Below, piece by piece: positions 232-27,684 of a stretch of DNA of 38,113 nucleotides; position 1 is the first letter of the stretch; each line of letters starts with the position of its first letter. The notes beneath the pieces were generated by a model. That model saw nothing but the letters and a program-made list of their open reading frames with translations. It did no database searches and was not told the DNA's origin. A program made the position numbers and the translations under genes. This DNA is from Ignavibacteria bacterium (GTDB lineage Bacteria > Bacteroidota > Ignavibacteria > UBA10030 > SZUA-254). Location: contig JACOSY010000032.1 in the NCBI GenBank assembly GCA_016178595.1, forward strand, positions 1 to 38,113. The letters run 5' to 3'.

Positions 232-615
232 ATGAAGAAATTACTCGTAATACTCGCAGTCGTTGTAGCGTTTGTCGCTGCCCAAAGCCGTCTTGCGGCG
301 CAGGATAAGCCTGCAGAGAAGATGAAGAAGAAAGGCGAGATGATGCAGAAGAAAGGAGAGATGAAGGAAAAGAAGGGCGAGATGAAAGAAGCCGCCGGAG
401 AGAAAATGGAGAAGAAGGGTGAAATGATGGAGAAGAAGGGTGGGGACATGGGCAAGGAAGGAATGGAAAAGGCCGGCGAAAAGATGGAGCATAAGGGCAA
501 GGTCATGAAGCACAAGGGTGGCAAGATGTCGAAGAAGGGTGAGATGATGATGAAGAAGAAAGGCGAGAAGATGGAAAAGAAGGGCGAGGAGATAAAGAAA
601 GACGGCGGCAACTAA
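232..615 (+). CDS. Secreted low-complexity Lys/Met/Glu-rich repeat protein
   Basis: A 127-residue protein with a classical signal peptide (residues 1-24: KK, a hydrophobic core, then a probable cut after LAAQ). The mature part is almost entirely degenerate 6-8-residue repeats built on KKGEMM, with variants KMEKKGE and EHKGKVMKHKGG. Lys, Met, Glu and Gly dominate; there is no Cys and no aromatic residue in the mature part. It is strongly basic and probably extended or helical. Own promoter upstream and a strong terminator downstream make it monocistronic. Similar low-complexity pentapeptide-like secreted proteins are annotated only as hypothetical. Binding of polyanions or of soft metals through Met is possible, but nothing here proves it. 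Confidence 0.8.
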   Translation: MKKLLVILAVVVAFVAAQSRLAAQDKPAEKMKKKGEMMQKKGEMKEKKGEMKEAAGEKMEKKGEMMEKKGGDMGKEGMEKAGEKMEHKGKVMKHKGGKMSKKGEMMMKKKGEKMEKKGEEIKKDGGN

Positions 616-3957: not shown

Positions 3958-4881
3958 ATGAATTCCTACGCAACGCGAGACGTCTCGACCAAGTCCAACA
4001 CGCTCCGCACTGCCAAAGCCATTGCCGTTCTGAGGGTTTTGCCAGTGACACTCGAAGCAATCCGGACCGGCAATGTCCCTAAAGCCGATCCTATCGGCGT
4101 TGCAAAAGTTGCCGGCATTCAATCGGCAAAGAACACGAGCCTGCTGATCCCGTATTGCCACCAGGTGCCGCTCGATTTCATCGGTGTTGATATCGAGCTT
4201 GGCGCTGATGCGATAACCGTTACGACTACCGTGAAAGCAATCTGGAAGACCGGCGTCGAGATGGAAGCGCTTGTTGCGGCATCCACAAGCGCACTGGCGC
4301 TCTATGATATGCTGAAGATTATCGATAGCGGTATGGAGATCGTTTCCGTTCGATTGGTGGAGAAAAAAGGAGGCAAGTCTTCCATCAAAGAATCCGGAGA
4401 AGGGCTTACTGCCGCAGTGTTGGTGTTGAGTGATTCGGTCAGCGGCGGACGAACGGAAGACCAATCCGGAAAAGTGTTGGTAGAAAAATTGAAGGCGTTG
4501 AGGATTCATGTTTCACGATTCAAGATTCTCCCGGACGATTGTGGAACGATCGAGAAAGAGTTGAAAAACCTGGCTGACAACGAGAAAGTCGATCTTATCG
4601 TGACGACCGGTGGGACAGGTATCAGCCCACGCGATGTAACGCCGGAAGCGACGCTCACAGTCATTGAACGGCGGCTTGAAGGAGTCGAAGAGACGCTGAG
4701 AAATTTTGGACAGAACCGGCTTCCGACGGCAATGCTTTCTCGCGTCGTCGTCGGCATCCGCGGCAAGTCGCTCATCGTGAATCTCCCCGGCTCAAAAGGC
4801 GGAGTGGAGGATGGCATGAACGCGATCTTTCCCTCCATTCTCCATACGTTTAGGATGATGAAGGGGGAAGGGCATGACTGA
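3958..4881 (+). CDS. moaCB: Bifunctional MoaC-MogA/MoaB fusion (molybdenum cofactor synthesis)
   Basis: 307 residues in two domains. Residues 1-150 are cyclic pyranopterin monophosphate synthase (MoaC): VPKADP, NTSLLIPYCHQVPL, TGVEMEALVAASTSALALYDMLK with the catalytic Asp-Met-x-Lys region, and KKGGKSS at the domain end. Residues about 155-307 are molybdopterin adenylyltransferase (MogA/MoaB): AAVLVLSDSVSGG, TTGGTGISPRDVTPEAT and the NLPGSKGGVEDGM nucleotide/pterin-binding segment. So one polypeptide covers an early and a late step of the pathway. Such MoaC-MoaB fusions are known in several phyla. ATG 3958 fits the MoaC N-terminus; longer starts read back toward the terminator. Codons for residues RIHVSRFKIL consist of four GATTCAY repeat units. 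The stop codon abuts an AGGTNNN array. Confidence 0.94.
   Translation: MNSYATRDVSTKSNTLRTAKAIAVLRVLPVTLEAIRTGNVPKADPIGVAKVAGIQSAKNTSLLIPYCHQVPLDFIGVDIELGADAITVTTTVKAIWKTGVEMEALVAASTSALALYDMLKIIDSGMEIVSVRLVEKKGGKSSIKESGEGLTAAVLVLSDSVSGGRTEDQSGKVLVEKLKALRIHVSRFKILPDDCGTIEKELKNLADNEKVDLIVTTGGTGISPRDVTPEATLTVIERRLEGVEETLRNFGQNRLPTAMLSRVVVGIRGKSLIVNLPGSKGGVEDGMNAIFPSILHTFRMMKGEGHD
4503..4530 (+). repeat. GATTCAY heptamer array inside the MogA-domain coding sequence
   Basis: Four in-phase units, GATTCAT, GTTTCAC, GATTCAA and GATTCTC, lie in the moaC-mogA reading frame and encode IHVSRFKIL. The same unit forms the array at 2273-2331. The protein stays family-like in length here. Confidence 0.5.
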
Positions 4882-4911
4882 GGTTTTAGGTAAAAGGTTA
4901 TAGGTGTTAGG
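4881..4911 (+). repeat. Left AGGTNNN array, inverted repeat partner of 5281-5311
   Basis: Four 7-base units AGGTTTT, AGGTAAA, AGGTTAT, AGGTGTT and the start of a fifth, AGGTGGG. The first base is the last base of the moaC-mogA stop codon, and the GTG start of the four-helix-bundle gene is in the fifth unit. Against the reverse complement of 5281-5311 it matches at 26 of 31 positions. Confidence 0.75.
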
Positions 4912-5285
4912 TGGGAAACGAAATCAAGAGCTTCGAAGACTTGGAAGTGTACAAGAAGCTCGTTCACCTACATTTAGAAGTGAACGACTTGACCCTCAAG
5001 TTTCCGAAACATGAGATGTATGAGCTTGGCTCACAGCTGCGTCGGTCTTCAAATTCAATTCCCGCAAATATCGCCGCAGGCCGGAACAATAAGCACGTTG
5101 CTATATATCTTGAAGGAATTAACAGAGCGTTTGGCGAATTGCAAGAGACGAGACATCATCTTTTTGTTGCATTCAAGAAAGGTTATCTCGAGAAGCAGGT
5201 ATACGAAGACTGCAAAGATCGATACGAGGAATGTGGTAGAATGCTCAGGGGTTTACAGCAATCGCTTCAAAAGTTTAAAGCCTAA
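4911..5285 (+). CDS. Four-helix-bundle protein (23S rRNA intervening-sequence / S23 family)
   Basis: 124 residues of the TIGR02436/PF05635 four-helix-bundle family, which includes proteins encoded in 23S rRNA intervening sequences and resembles the RNA-binding Avd accessory protein of diversity-generating retroelements. Hallmarks: SFEDLEVYKKLVHLHLEV near the start, FPKHEMYELGSQLRRSSNSIPANIAAG in the middle, and helical GELQETRHHLFVAFKKGYL later. The start is a GTG at 4911 inside the left array; the stop TAA (5283-5285) is inside the right array. The gene sits in an operon of molybdenum genes to which it is functionally unrelated, and its two flanks are inverted repeats of each other, so it looks like a small inserted element. 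The biochemical role is unknown. Confidence 0.9.
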   Translation: MGNEIKSFEDLEVYKKLVHLHLEVNDLTLKFPKHEMYELGSQLRRSSNSIPANIAAGRNNKHVAIYLEGINRAFGELQETRHHLFVAFKKGYLEKQVYEDCKDRYEECGRMLRGLQQSLQKFKA

Positions 5286-5311
5286 CACCCATCACCTTTC
5301 ACCTATGACCT
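5281..5311 (-). repeat. Right AGGTNNN array, inverted partner of 4881-4911
   Basis: Read on the minus strand, units AGGTCAT, AGGTGAA, AGGTGAT, GGGTGTT and AGG. It contains the stop codon of the four-helix-bundle gene at one end and the ATG (5305) of the next gene at the other. In RNA the two arrays would form a stem of about 31 base pairs with five mismatched positions enclosing the whole open reading frame. Confidence 0.75.
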
Positions 5312-5910
5312 TACTCGATAAGAAACGCTTCGTCCCCGGCATCAACTCTTTCGGAAAAGAAAAAACCCCTCCCGGCCAGGTTGCGACAGTCAAGTTTCCC
5401 GTCCTCACCTACGGCGCGACGCCGGAGATTGACACAAAAGATTGGAGCTTCAAAGTCTGGGGAGAAGTTGAAGAGGAAAAACAGTGGACGTGGGACGACT
5501 TCATGAAGCTCCCGCAAACAACAATCCGTGCCGACTTCCATTGCGTTACACATTGGAGCCGCTTCGATGACTATTGGACCGGCGTTCTCTTCAAAGACCT
5601 TGTCAAGTTTATCAGGATAAAGCCCACGGCAAAATTCGTCATGCAACATGCGTATGGCGGATACACGACGAACAACGCCATCGACGTCATGCTCAATGAA
5701 GACGTCATCCTTGTGCATACCTTCAATGGCGCACCGCTTCCACGTGCGCATGGCGGGCCGATGCGCGTCTTCACGCCGCGCCGCTACGCGTGGAAAGGTG
5801 CGAAGTGGGTGAACGGCTTGGAATTCATGACGAAGGATCGTGCGGGTTTTTGGGAAATGAACGGATACGATACGCCTGCCGATCCGTGGAAGGAAGAGCG
5901 GTACGGGTAG
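5305..5910 (+). CDS. Cytoplasmic sulfite-oxidase-fold molybdopterin oxidoreductase
   Basis: 201 residues, PF00174 family, without a signal peptide. The molybdenum-ligating cysteine is C80 in RADFHCVTHWS; YGGYTTNNAIDVML, HGGPMRVFTPRRYAWKGAKWVNGLEF and the C-terminal WEMNGYDTPADPWKEERY are characteristic of the short YedY-like group. ATG 5305 lies within the right AGGTNNN array; a longer in-frame extension would run back through the four-helix-bundle gene and is implausible. It is a paralogue in fold, not a close copy, of the exported enzyme at 706. Its substrate and redox partner are unknown. It would share transcription with moaC-mogA if the array element is read through. Confidence 0.9.
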   Translation: MTLLDKKRFVPGINSFGKEKTPPGQVATVKFPVLTYGATPEIDTKDWSFKVWGEVEEEKQWTWDDFMKLPQTTIRADFHCVTHWSRFDDYWTGVLFKDLVKFIRIKPTAKFVMQHAYGGYTTNNAIDVMLNEDVILVHTFNGAPLPRAHGGPMRVFTPRRYAWKGAKWVNGLEFMTKDRAGFWEMNGYDTPADPWKEERYG

Positions 5911-24498: not shown

Positions 24499-24534
24499 AT
24501 TGATTTATTGGTTCAGTGAATCATCGTTTCATTT
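24499..24534 (+). repeat. Left ATTGNNTC octamer array, inverted partner of 24907-24938
   Basis: Units ATTGATTT, ATTGGTTC, AGTGAATC, ATCGTTTC and a partial ATTT, in strict 8-base phase. Units 2-4 match the reverse complement of the right array at 18 of 24 positions. It ends 17 bases before the start codon of the four-helix-bundle gene. Confidence 0.55.
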
Positions 24535-24551: not shown

Positions 24552-24911
24552 ATGTACAAGACCGAGCAACTCAAACAGCGAACGAAGCAGTTTGCCCTCA
24601 GAGTCATTAAACTCTACCGTTCATTGCCGCGTACGGAAGATGCGCGCGTGCTTGGACGGCAAGTTCTTCGTTCGGCAACGTCTGTGGGTGCTAACTATCG
24701 TGCTGTCTGTCGTGCCAGAACAAAAGCGGAATTCGTTTCAAAAATTGGAGTAGTAGTGGAGGAAGCCGACGAGTCCCTCTTCTGGCTCGAGATGCTCGTT
24801 GATTCCCAGATAGTTTCGGCGAAACGAATGGAGAGTCTTCTTATCGAAGCGAACGAATTGCTTGCAATCTTTGCCGCCTCACAGAGAACGGTGAAAGCAC
24901 ACATCCAATGA
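24552..24911 (+). CDS. Four-helix-bundle protein, second type
   Basis: 119 residues of the four-helix-bundle (S23-related, TIGR02436-type) superfamily but from a different branch than the one at 4911: TKQFALRVIKLYRSLP at the start, VLGRQVLRSATSVGANYRAVCRARTKAEFVSKIGVVVEEADESLFWLEML in the core. ATG 24552 is supported by AAAGGAGG. The stop codon TGA (24909-24911) is inside the first unit of the right octamer array. As with the first copy, the reading frame is framed by inverted short-period arrays. An RNA-binding or element-maintenance role is an inference from the Avd and rRNA intervening-sequence relatives. Confidence 0.9.
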   Translation: MYKTEQLKQRTKQFALRVIKLYRSLPRTEDARVLGRQVLRSATSVGANYRAVCRARTKAEFVSKIGVVVEEADESLFWLEMLVDSQIVSAKRMESLLIEANELLAIFAASQRTVKAHIQ

Positions 24912-24938
24912 ATCAATGACCCAATGAAACAATGAGAC
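24907..24938 (-). repeat. Right octamer array after the second four-helix-bundle gene
   Basis: Four units in exact 8-base phase on the plus strand: AATGAATC, AATGACCC, AATGAAAC, AATGAGAC. The stop codon of the upstream gene is in the first unit. The downstream amidohydrolase ATG is 17 bases further on. Confidence 0.75.
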
Positions 24939-26303: not shown

Positions 26304-26741
26304 ATGCGATATTCCATAACCCTTCTTCTTACGTTCATCTGCGTCGGAAATCTCCTCTCGCAGCCGGAGAAATCCATCCAGGCCGTGCTCGACAGCCAGG
26401 CTGCCGCATGGAATCGCGGCGACATCGAAGGATACATGCAAGGCTACTGGAAATCGGACAGTCTTCTCTTCACGAGCGGCGGAAAGATTCAGCGCGGATA
26501 CAGCGCGACGCTGAAAAAGTACAGGAAGAGTTACGACACGAAGGCGAAGATGGGGACGCTGAAGTTCTCCGACGTAGAAGTCACTCTTCTCTTGCCCGAT
26601 GCCGCCTGGGCCTTCGGTCATTGGGAATTGAAACGAAAAGGCGATCATCCCGAGGGCGTCTTCACGCTTATTCTTAGAAAATTTGCAGATGGATGGAAAA
26701 TCGTCCACGATCACACATCGGTTGAAGCAAGTAAAAAGTAA
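26304..26741 (+). CDS. Exported SnoaL/DUF4440-like (NTF2-fold) protein
   Basis: 145 residues. Signal peptide [19 protein letters not shown], then an NTF2-like domain: [36 protein letters not shown], the typical opening of DUF4440, and [21 protein letters not shown], the typical close. Members bind small molecules or act as isomerase-like enzymes; many are uncharacterised. No Shine-Dalgarno site is visible before the ATG. It is followed by purC with 16 bases between. Confidence 0.88.
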
Positions 26742-26757
26742 AAAGTCAAAAGGAAAA

Positions 26758-27684
26758 ATGGTCGAGCCCGTATCGCGCATCCCGTATCGCCAATCGAACA
26801 CAGCAGTATATGAGACCGACTTTCCCACGCTCCACTTTCTCAGGCGCGGCAAGGTGCGCGACGTCTACGATCTCGGCGAGCATTTGTTGATCGTTGCAAC
26901 CGACCGGCTCTCGGCATTCGACGTTGTCATGCCCCAGCCGATTCCCGGCAAGGGGAAAGTGCTGACGCAGATCTCCAACTACTGGTTCGCGATCATGAAA
27001 GACATCATCCCGAACCACATCGTTGCCACGCGAGTGGAAGATTTCCCGAAGGAATGTGAATCGTACGCCGAACAGCTACGGGGAAGAAGTGTAGTCGTGA
27101 AGAAGGCACAGCCGCTGCCAATCGAATGTGTTGTGCGAGGGTATCTCTCCGGTTCCGGCTGGAATGAATACAAAGAATCGGGAAACATTTGCGGCATCGG
27201 ATTGCCGGAAGGATTGGTGGAGTCCTCGAAGCTTCCGGAACCGATCTTCACGCCTGCGACGAAAGCCGACGTGGGGCACGACGAGAATATTTCTTTCGAG
27301 CGTGCTGCGGCAATGGTCGGGAAGGACGCCGCAGAGAACGTCCGCGACTATTCCATCGCTATCTACAAACGAGCAGTCGAGATCGCCGATGCCAAGGGCA
27401 TCATCATCGCAGATACGAAGATGGAGTTCGGATTGTACGATGGGCAGCTCATTCTTATTGACGAACTCCTCACGCCTGATTCGTCGCGCTTCTGGCCCAA
27501 AGACAACTATCAGCCCGGTCGTTCCCAGGAAAGTTTCGATAAGCAATACGTGCGCGATTATCTTCTTTCCATTCACTTCAACAAGAAACCGCCGGGACCG
27601 CAGCTACCGGAGGAAGTTATCCGGAAAACATCCGAGTTATATCGCGAAGCGCTGAAGAAGCTGACCGGGACCGGGCTCGAATAG
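26758..27684 (+). CDS. purC: SAICAR synthetase
   Basis: 308 residues, phosphoribosylaminoimidazole-succinocarboxamide synthase: it joins aspartate to CAIR with ATP in purine synthesis. Signatures: [65 protein letters not shown], and [14 protein letters not shown]. The length is that of the longer, ADE1-like type. ATG 26758 is preceded by AAAAGGAAAA; an in-frame extension into the previous gene is not supported. No other purine gene is nearby. Confidence 0.95.

Follow-up and report, generated by a model that had tools for sequence, protein, structure and literature searches.

What kind of element is formed by a gene that is enclosed by two inverted arrays of short repeats and that lies between two genes of an operon without breaking it? 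The question is raised by a locus of an Ignavibacteria bacterium (genome of 3.1 Mb, 61 contigs). The window, i.e. the whole stretch of DNA that was analysed (38,113 nucleotides), is on contig C31. The gene encodes a four-helix-bundle (4HB) protein and the arrays are made of heptads. A note made earlier from the DNA letters described the whole as an element similar to rRNA intervening sequences (IVSs) but located outside rRNA. The comparisons reported here indicate that the gene and its two arrays probably constitute one small, mobile or formerly mobile, IVS-like element, whose arrays would be recognised by the cognate protein.

Structure of the element

The features of the window are given in Table 1. 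The earlier description (two inverted 31-base arrays of period 7, matching at 26 of 31 positions, around one S23-type gene) is exact, and the stop and start codons of the three genes are all found in or at the edges of the arrays, as claimed. Since the element fits the stop/start junction, the flanking genes stay intact.

Table 1. Repeat arrays and genes of the window.
Feature	Position	Strand	Characteristics a
Small ORF	232-615		Contains overlapping 21- and 24-base tandem repeats (315-599); upstream of the next gene
Oxidored_molyb gene	706-1425
moaCB, upstream host gene	3958-4881	+	Bifunctional MoaC/MoaB, NF002947; stop TGA 4879-4881
Upstream array	4881-4911	+	Unit AGGTNNN, period 7; overlaps moaCB stop, ends at 4HB start; AGGTTTTAGGTAAAAGGTTATAGGTGTTAGG
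4HB gene	4911-5285	+	PF05635/TIGR02436, 124 aa; start GTG 4911, stop TAA 5283-5285 within downstream array
Downstream array	5281-5311	+	Unit AGGTNNN, inverted; carries 4HB stop and ATG of next gene; AGGTCATAGGTGAAAGGTGATGGGTGTTAGG b
Downstream host gene, Oxidored_molyb-domain protein	5305-5910	+	Start ATG 5305
Second 4HB element, upstream arm	24499-24524	+	Period 8, degraded
Second PF05635 gene	24552-24911	+	Alternative GTG start 24516
Second 4HB element, downstream arm	24908-24933	+	Unit CAATGANN, period 8
Orphan array	26723-26761	+	Period 7, no 4HB gene; unit matches arrays of locus L004 (contig C54)
a Positions are those of the window. b Given as reverse complement; 26/31 identical to the upstream array.

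The two arrays form the top inverted repeat of the window (score 18.5 in a scan of the 38 kb for spans of 250-750 nt), versus best scores of 12.0-15.5 across 20 Markov surrogates of the window. The runner-up encloses the second PF05635 gene; its score of 13.5, taken alone, is within the surrogate range.

The protein scores 96.4 bits against PF05635, whose cut-off is 33.8, and 87.7 bits against TIGR02436, whose cut-off is 24. In its AF2 model (pLDDT 95), four helices form a clean bundle. The solved fold closest to this model is Xcc0516 (2GSC; 0.7-1.2 Å), followed by BT_0352 (2RLD) and Avd (4DWL). Across the closest solved structures, 2GSC and 2RLD, rmsd is 0.7-2.6 Å, with 28% and about 22% identity respectively. 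The predicted fold is also that of Avd from diversity-generating retroelements (4DWL, 8UB7).

Terminal inverted repeats are expected of a DNA transposon or a MITE and are present here. No known recombinase is encoded within the element. In a comparison of empty and filled junctions, no target-site duplication was identified; as the arrays extend into host codons, a duplication would be hard to recognise.

The source genome has eight PF05635 matches. They correspond to about seven genes because two matches at the ends of contigs (L007 and L008, on contigs C45 and C58) seem to be the two parts of a single gene, covering positions 1-52 and 52-104 of the profile; the assembly seems to break inside this gene. 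In this genome, short-period arrays flank most 4HB genes on both sides, and the unit is particular to each gene. The arrays are usually inverted; those of L004 look direct.

Gain and loss at insertion sites

Presence and absence of 4HB elements at otherwise intact sites were found at two junctions, moaCB/oxidoreductase and lysA/asd. In four genomes of the same family, the moaCB and oxidoreductase genes overlap or are 4-8 nt apart, and neither a 4HB gene nor arrays are found between them. In a fifth genome this junction has 102 nt that resemble, by eye, degenerate array scars. The lysA/asd junction is 15-26 nt long when empty; the empty sites include one in a genome whose genus is occupied elsewhere. 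The earlier proposal of an insertion of gene plus arrays into an operon without breakage is thus borne out by sister genomes, whose empty sites lack the arrays along with the gene, and by the gene-specificity of the arrays.

Two relatives (L140 and L148) hold another 4HB gene at the moaCB/oxidoreductase junction. Its product shares only 35-38 identities over 100-104 residues with that of the window. With so low an identity, two or more separate 4HB insertions probably took place at this junction. L140 and L148 are orthologous (91/127 identical, same site), yet their units differ, each having two arms that agree by eye. At the moaCB end of L140, GCATGGGAGAAAGGGAGA of the upstream arm recurs in the downstream arm, and with it a few bases from the last codons of the host gene. 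Copying of one arm from the other, over the junction, would give such a pattern.

Insertion within a coding gene was also found. Four related copies of an N6-methyltransferase gene, one of them truncated by a contig end, carry a 4HB element in a loop. The reading frame of the host stays open across the whole element, in a frame that differs from that of the 4HB gene, with zero stop codons versus a mean of 7.2 in the same frame of all elements. Three homologues have only a short loop at the insertion position. The four copies probably derive from one insertion; the case shows that such an element can persist within a coding gene. This loop, located before motif I (L269-L281), is a hotspot for in-frame inserts. 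The inserts, seen in the source genome itself (L272) as well as in several relatives, include 4HB elements at one extreme and short palindrome-like repeats translated as part of the protein at the other.

Generality of the arms

PF05635 is present in 49 of 60 sampled relatives. Loci were sampled from relatives (30) and from other groups (80: Chloroflexi, Planctomycetes, Acidobacteria, Proteobacteria, Cyanobacteria, Firmicutes, Bacteroidetes and one archaeon). Matching inverted short-period arrays were found at both gene ends in about three quarters of 111 PF05635 loci, which belong to many phyla; about a quarter of these 111 loci have no clear arms according to flank matching. Short-period arrays at both ends, usually inverted, are found in most of the 30 loci from relatives and in most of the 80 others; the earlier note had proposed such a check on flanks of 4HB genes in related genomes. 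Among the 66 loci of at least 9 kb, to which the ranking of inverted repeats was restricted, the 4HB gene lies inside the top-ranked inverted repeat of the locus in 38, and inside one of the five best-ranked in 51.

Arms match within elements rather than between them. An arm match score of at least 14 is reached by 50% of true upstream/downstream pairs versus 1.6% of pairs permuted between elements; for a score of at least 11, the values are 76% and 7%. Autocorrelation of the arms at lags 7, 14 and 21 is 0.55, 0.51 and 0.46, versus about 0.25 in the gene. Period 7 predominates; some arms have periods 6, 8 or 9. C is scarce in the upstream arm (12%, versus 29% G; G exceeds C in 68/83). Stop codons are enriched in the arms, slightly upstream and moderately downstream.

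Compared with the rest of the same loci, the vicinity of 4HB genes has a 14-fold higher density of period-7 arrays. Enrichment near the genes is 7- to 8-fold for periods 8 and 9, with small counts, and absent for periods 6, 10 and 11.

Other small ORFs were seen within inverted repeats. In L065 (14828-15300), a GIY-YIG-type ORF (by eye) is flanked by GTCATTGCGAGGAACGAAGCAATC in inverted orientation, an arrangement that resembles 4HB elements. In L095 (2576-3221), an inverted repeat surrounds a DUF559/Vsr-like endonuclease ORF (by eye), again a small ORF-in-inverted-repeat unit. In L058 (12865-13201) and L115 (13722-14027), about 300 nt are enclosed within inverted CACAGAG-type repeats such as CCACAGAGACACAGAGG.

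Relation between array unit and protein, and orphan arrays

The array unit differs between 4HB genes, agrees within a gene and follows the protein across phyla. Among cross-phylum pairs of proteins, the unit is shared in 48.5% of those at least 55% identical and in 3.5% of those less than 40% identical. In a Mantel test of unit against protein, none of 500 permutations reached the observed correlation. Common descent could account for part of this sharing among related proteins.

Arrays without a 4HB gene (orphans) match the 4HB unit of their own locus at a score of at least 15 in 26% of cases, versus 1.4% for units of other loci. In the source genome, two or three of the four orphan arrays match its own 4HB units: the one of the window matches L004, and one or two of the three others match L005.

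The distribution of orphans was estimated from sampled stretches of genomes. No period-7 array was found outside 4HB flanks in 501 kb from relatives' genomes with at most one PF05635 gene, versus 35 away from 4HB genes in 825 kb from relatives' genomes with at least four. A replicate sample across the phylum of the window gave 0 in 344 kb versus 19 in 335 kb. Pooled, these are 0 arrays in 845 kb (32 genomes with at most one gene) and 54 in 1160 kb (57 rich genomes). Such arrays occur in 19 of the 57 rich genomes and in none of the 32 poor ones (Fisher p 8e-5 on raw counts that ignore phylogeny), and a few genomes hold many of them. Arrays of other periods show no such difference between 4HB-rich and 4HB-poor genomes in the same samples. 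The earlier note named two findings that would speak against it; both were looked for, and neither came out that way. At empty sites the arrays are missing, and the possibility that arrays are equally common without 4HB genes does not agree with the enrichment near the genes nor with the absence of arrays from sampled genomes with at most one.

These data bear on a simple alternative, in which the arrays are ordinary slippage-prone intergenic repeats and 4HB genes land in or near them by chance. Heptanucleotide repeats are the commonest of those of 5-11 nt in most surveyed genomes and were ascribed to polymerase slippage (reviewed in PMC4679880); the existence of orphans would also fit. However, empty sites have no array, both gene ends carry an inverted pair of the same unit, the unit follows the protein clade, and the 845 kb from 4HB-poor genomes are devoid of arrays. 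Chance landing is therefore scarcely probable and already largely refuted.

Comparison of sequences establishes the association of arrays with elements at large, the joint gain of gene and arrays at sites that are empty elsewhere, the tracking of the protein by the unit and the match of orphans to resident units. Recognition of the arrays by the protein, which the earlier note considered, is supported indirectly, by a unit that follows the protein clade across phyla; binding itself, like movement of the element, is what we infer from sequence.

Predicted pairing of the arms in RNA

The arrays could instead act in the transcript, by pairing into a stem that holds the ORF in its loop, for processing by, for instance, RNase III, as in 23S rRNA IVSs. 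The predicted fold pairs the arms of the window element into a 33-bp stem, in Coxiella, RNase III cuts inside a stem of the IVS, which has heptads (PMC4990558), and 4HB elements have a strong co-directional bias: neighbours are on the same strand on both sides in 54 of 63 elements versus 157 of 265 control genes, the latter being mechanical ORFs and thus a rough control. Against this, the register match between arms does not go beyond the common unit (30 vs 31, p 0.19), G-U pairs on the sense strand are not in excess (85 vs 75, p 0.48), folding of the whole element is unremarkable (z -1.62) and some elements, such as L004, have direct instead of inverted arrays. A first test for base-by-base register was discarded, because its alignment had been selected and its null had not; the fair version gave a null result, the arms matching at the unit level only. 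The claim that the transcript folds like an IVS, taken as a functional one, does not hold up in these three tests (register, G-U bias, folding). Formation of an RNA stem and its cleavage by RNase III, although possible, are unsupported by them, and this reading is regarded as doubtful.

Candidate mobilisation mechanisms

Two enzymes were considered for a mobile element of this type. The first is a Y1 transposase (IS200/RAYT-type), which would move the gene and its arrays by acting on the arrays. In 60 genomes, Y1_Tnp counts rise with 4HB counts (rho 0.71, p 1.5e-10) and the source genome has 11 Y1 matches. However, most of the sampled Y1 genes lie next to compact hairpins, and they have no period-7 flanks (lag 7 0.263), and six genomes have 4HB genes yet zero Y1 matches. 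Given these hairpin flanks, the correlation may correspond to a shared tolerance of repeats or to a helper role; Y1 counts in the same genomes could reflect general repeat tolerance. Mobilisation by Y1 is considered unlikely.

The second is a host reverse transcriptase, recruited by the Avd-like protein. The modelled fold is that of Avd, the partner of the reverse transcriptase of diversity-generating retroelements (4DWL, TM 0.77), and a sense RNA intermediate would fit co-directional insertion. However, RVT_1 was not found in the source genome by profile search, which argues against an obligate role, allowing for the fragmented assembly. Among the relatives, RVT_1 occurs in 12 of 60 and shows no correlation with the number of 4HB genes (rho -0.02). 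This mechanism is thus very improbable.

Relation to known elements

The closest relatives in plan are the 23S rRNA IVSs with an S23p ORF (Coxiella, Leptospira). They share with the window element the protein family, a size of about 430 nt and terminal inverted repeats enclosing a short ORF (26/31 matching arms in the window); the Coxiella IVS also has heptameric repeats beside the ORF (PMC4990558). They are located in rRNA, whereas the window element lies between moaCB and an oxidoreductase gene, and the unit of window-type elements varies from gene to gene, unlike 23S rRNA IVSs. No Rfam match was found anywhere in the window. Because it is outside rRNA, the window element is not a 23S IVS; its plan is still that of an IVS. 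The designation as IVS-like outside rRNA is therefore apt, heptads being found also in the true 23S rRNA IVS of Coxiella (PMC4990558). Insertions in 16S and 23S rRNA genes of CPR bacteria also contain PF05635 ORFs (PMC11270868).

The REP/RAYT systems are similar in having a gene with flanking repeats and dispersed orphans that match the repeats of the resident gene; the likeness extends to the absence of 4HB orphan arrays from sampled genomes with at most one PF05635 gene. They differ by compact hairpins and a Y1 HUH transposase, versus distant inverted 7-mer arms and a PF05635 gene. Diversity-generating retroelements, which have an Avd of the same predicted fold, differ by their reverse transcriptase, RVT_1 being undetected in the window's genome.

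The heptamer repeats of Xanthomonas (GGGAATC), Nostoc (GGGGATT) and Beggiatoaceae/cyanobacteria (TAACTGA) have the same period and are mostly intergenic. Heptamer repeats are known in cyanobacteria and Bacteroidetes (PMC4679880). For Xanthomonas, convergent inverted pairs were reported, and no general association with mobile elements (PMC4692102). No link with 4HB genes was found, and no mobile source is named, in the text of the papers on these heptamers (PMC4692102, PMC4679880). In a search of an open-access library, heptads were tied to the PF05635 family only in the Coxiella IVS, and no accepted source for the over-representation of bacterial heptamers was found. The link between heptads and 4HB genes proposed here was not encountered in this library.

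Proposed model and significance

The preferred reading is a mobile or formerly mobile element of about 430 bp, related to the rRNA IVSs that carry the same protein. The arrays would be its two ends and would be recognised by the cognate Avd/S23-like protein, directly or via a partner. Located between co-directional genes, the element would ride on host transcription; co-directional insertion in operons fits the use of host transcripts. Orphan heptad arrays would be either remnants or non-autonomous copies, in the way that REPs relate to RAYTs. The element is widespread and mobile-looking, and the locus described here is one copy of it.

A broader proposal is more tentative, and somewhat less than evenly favoured: the Avd/S23-like protein would recognise, and perhaps generate, its own heptad arrays, the elements would be the source of most bacterial heptamers, and a protein-to-unit recognition code would be readable from sequence.

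PF05635 proteins are common and multi-copy, and their tie to heptads gives both a testable function. Cognate pairs of protein and array can be read from hundreds of genomes. The tie also points to a general element of which rRNA IVSs would be a special case, and 4HB elements may explain many of the heptad repeats of bacterial genomes.
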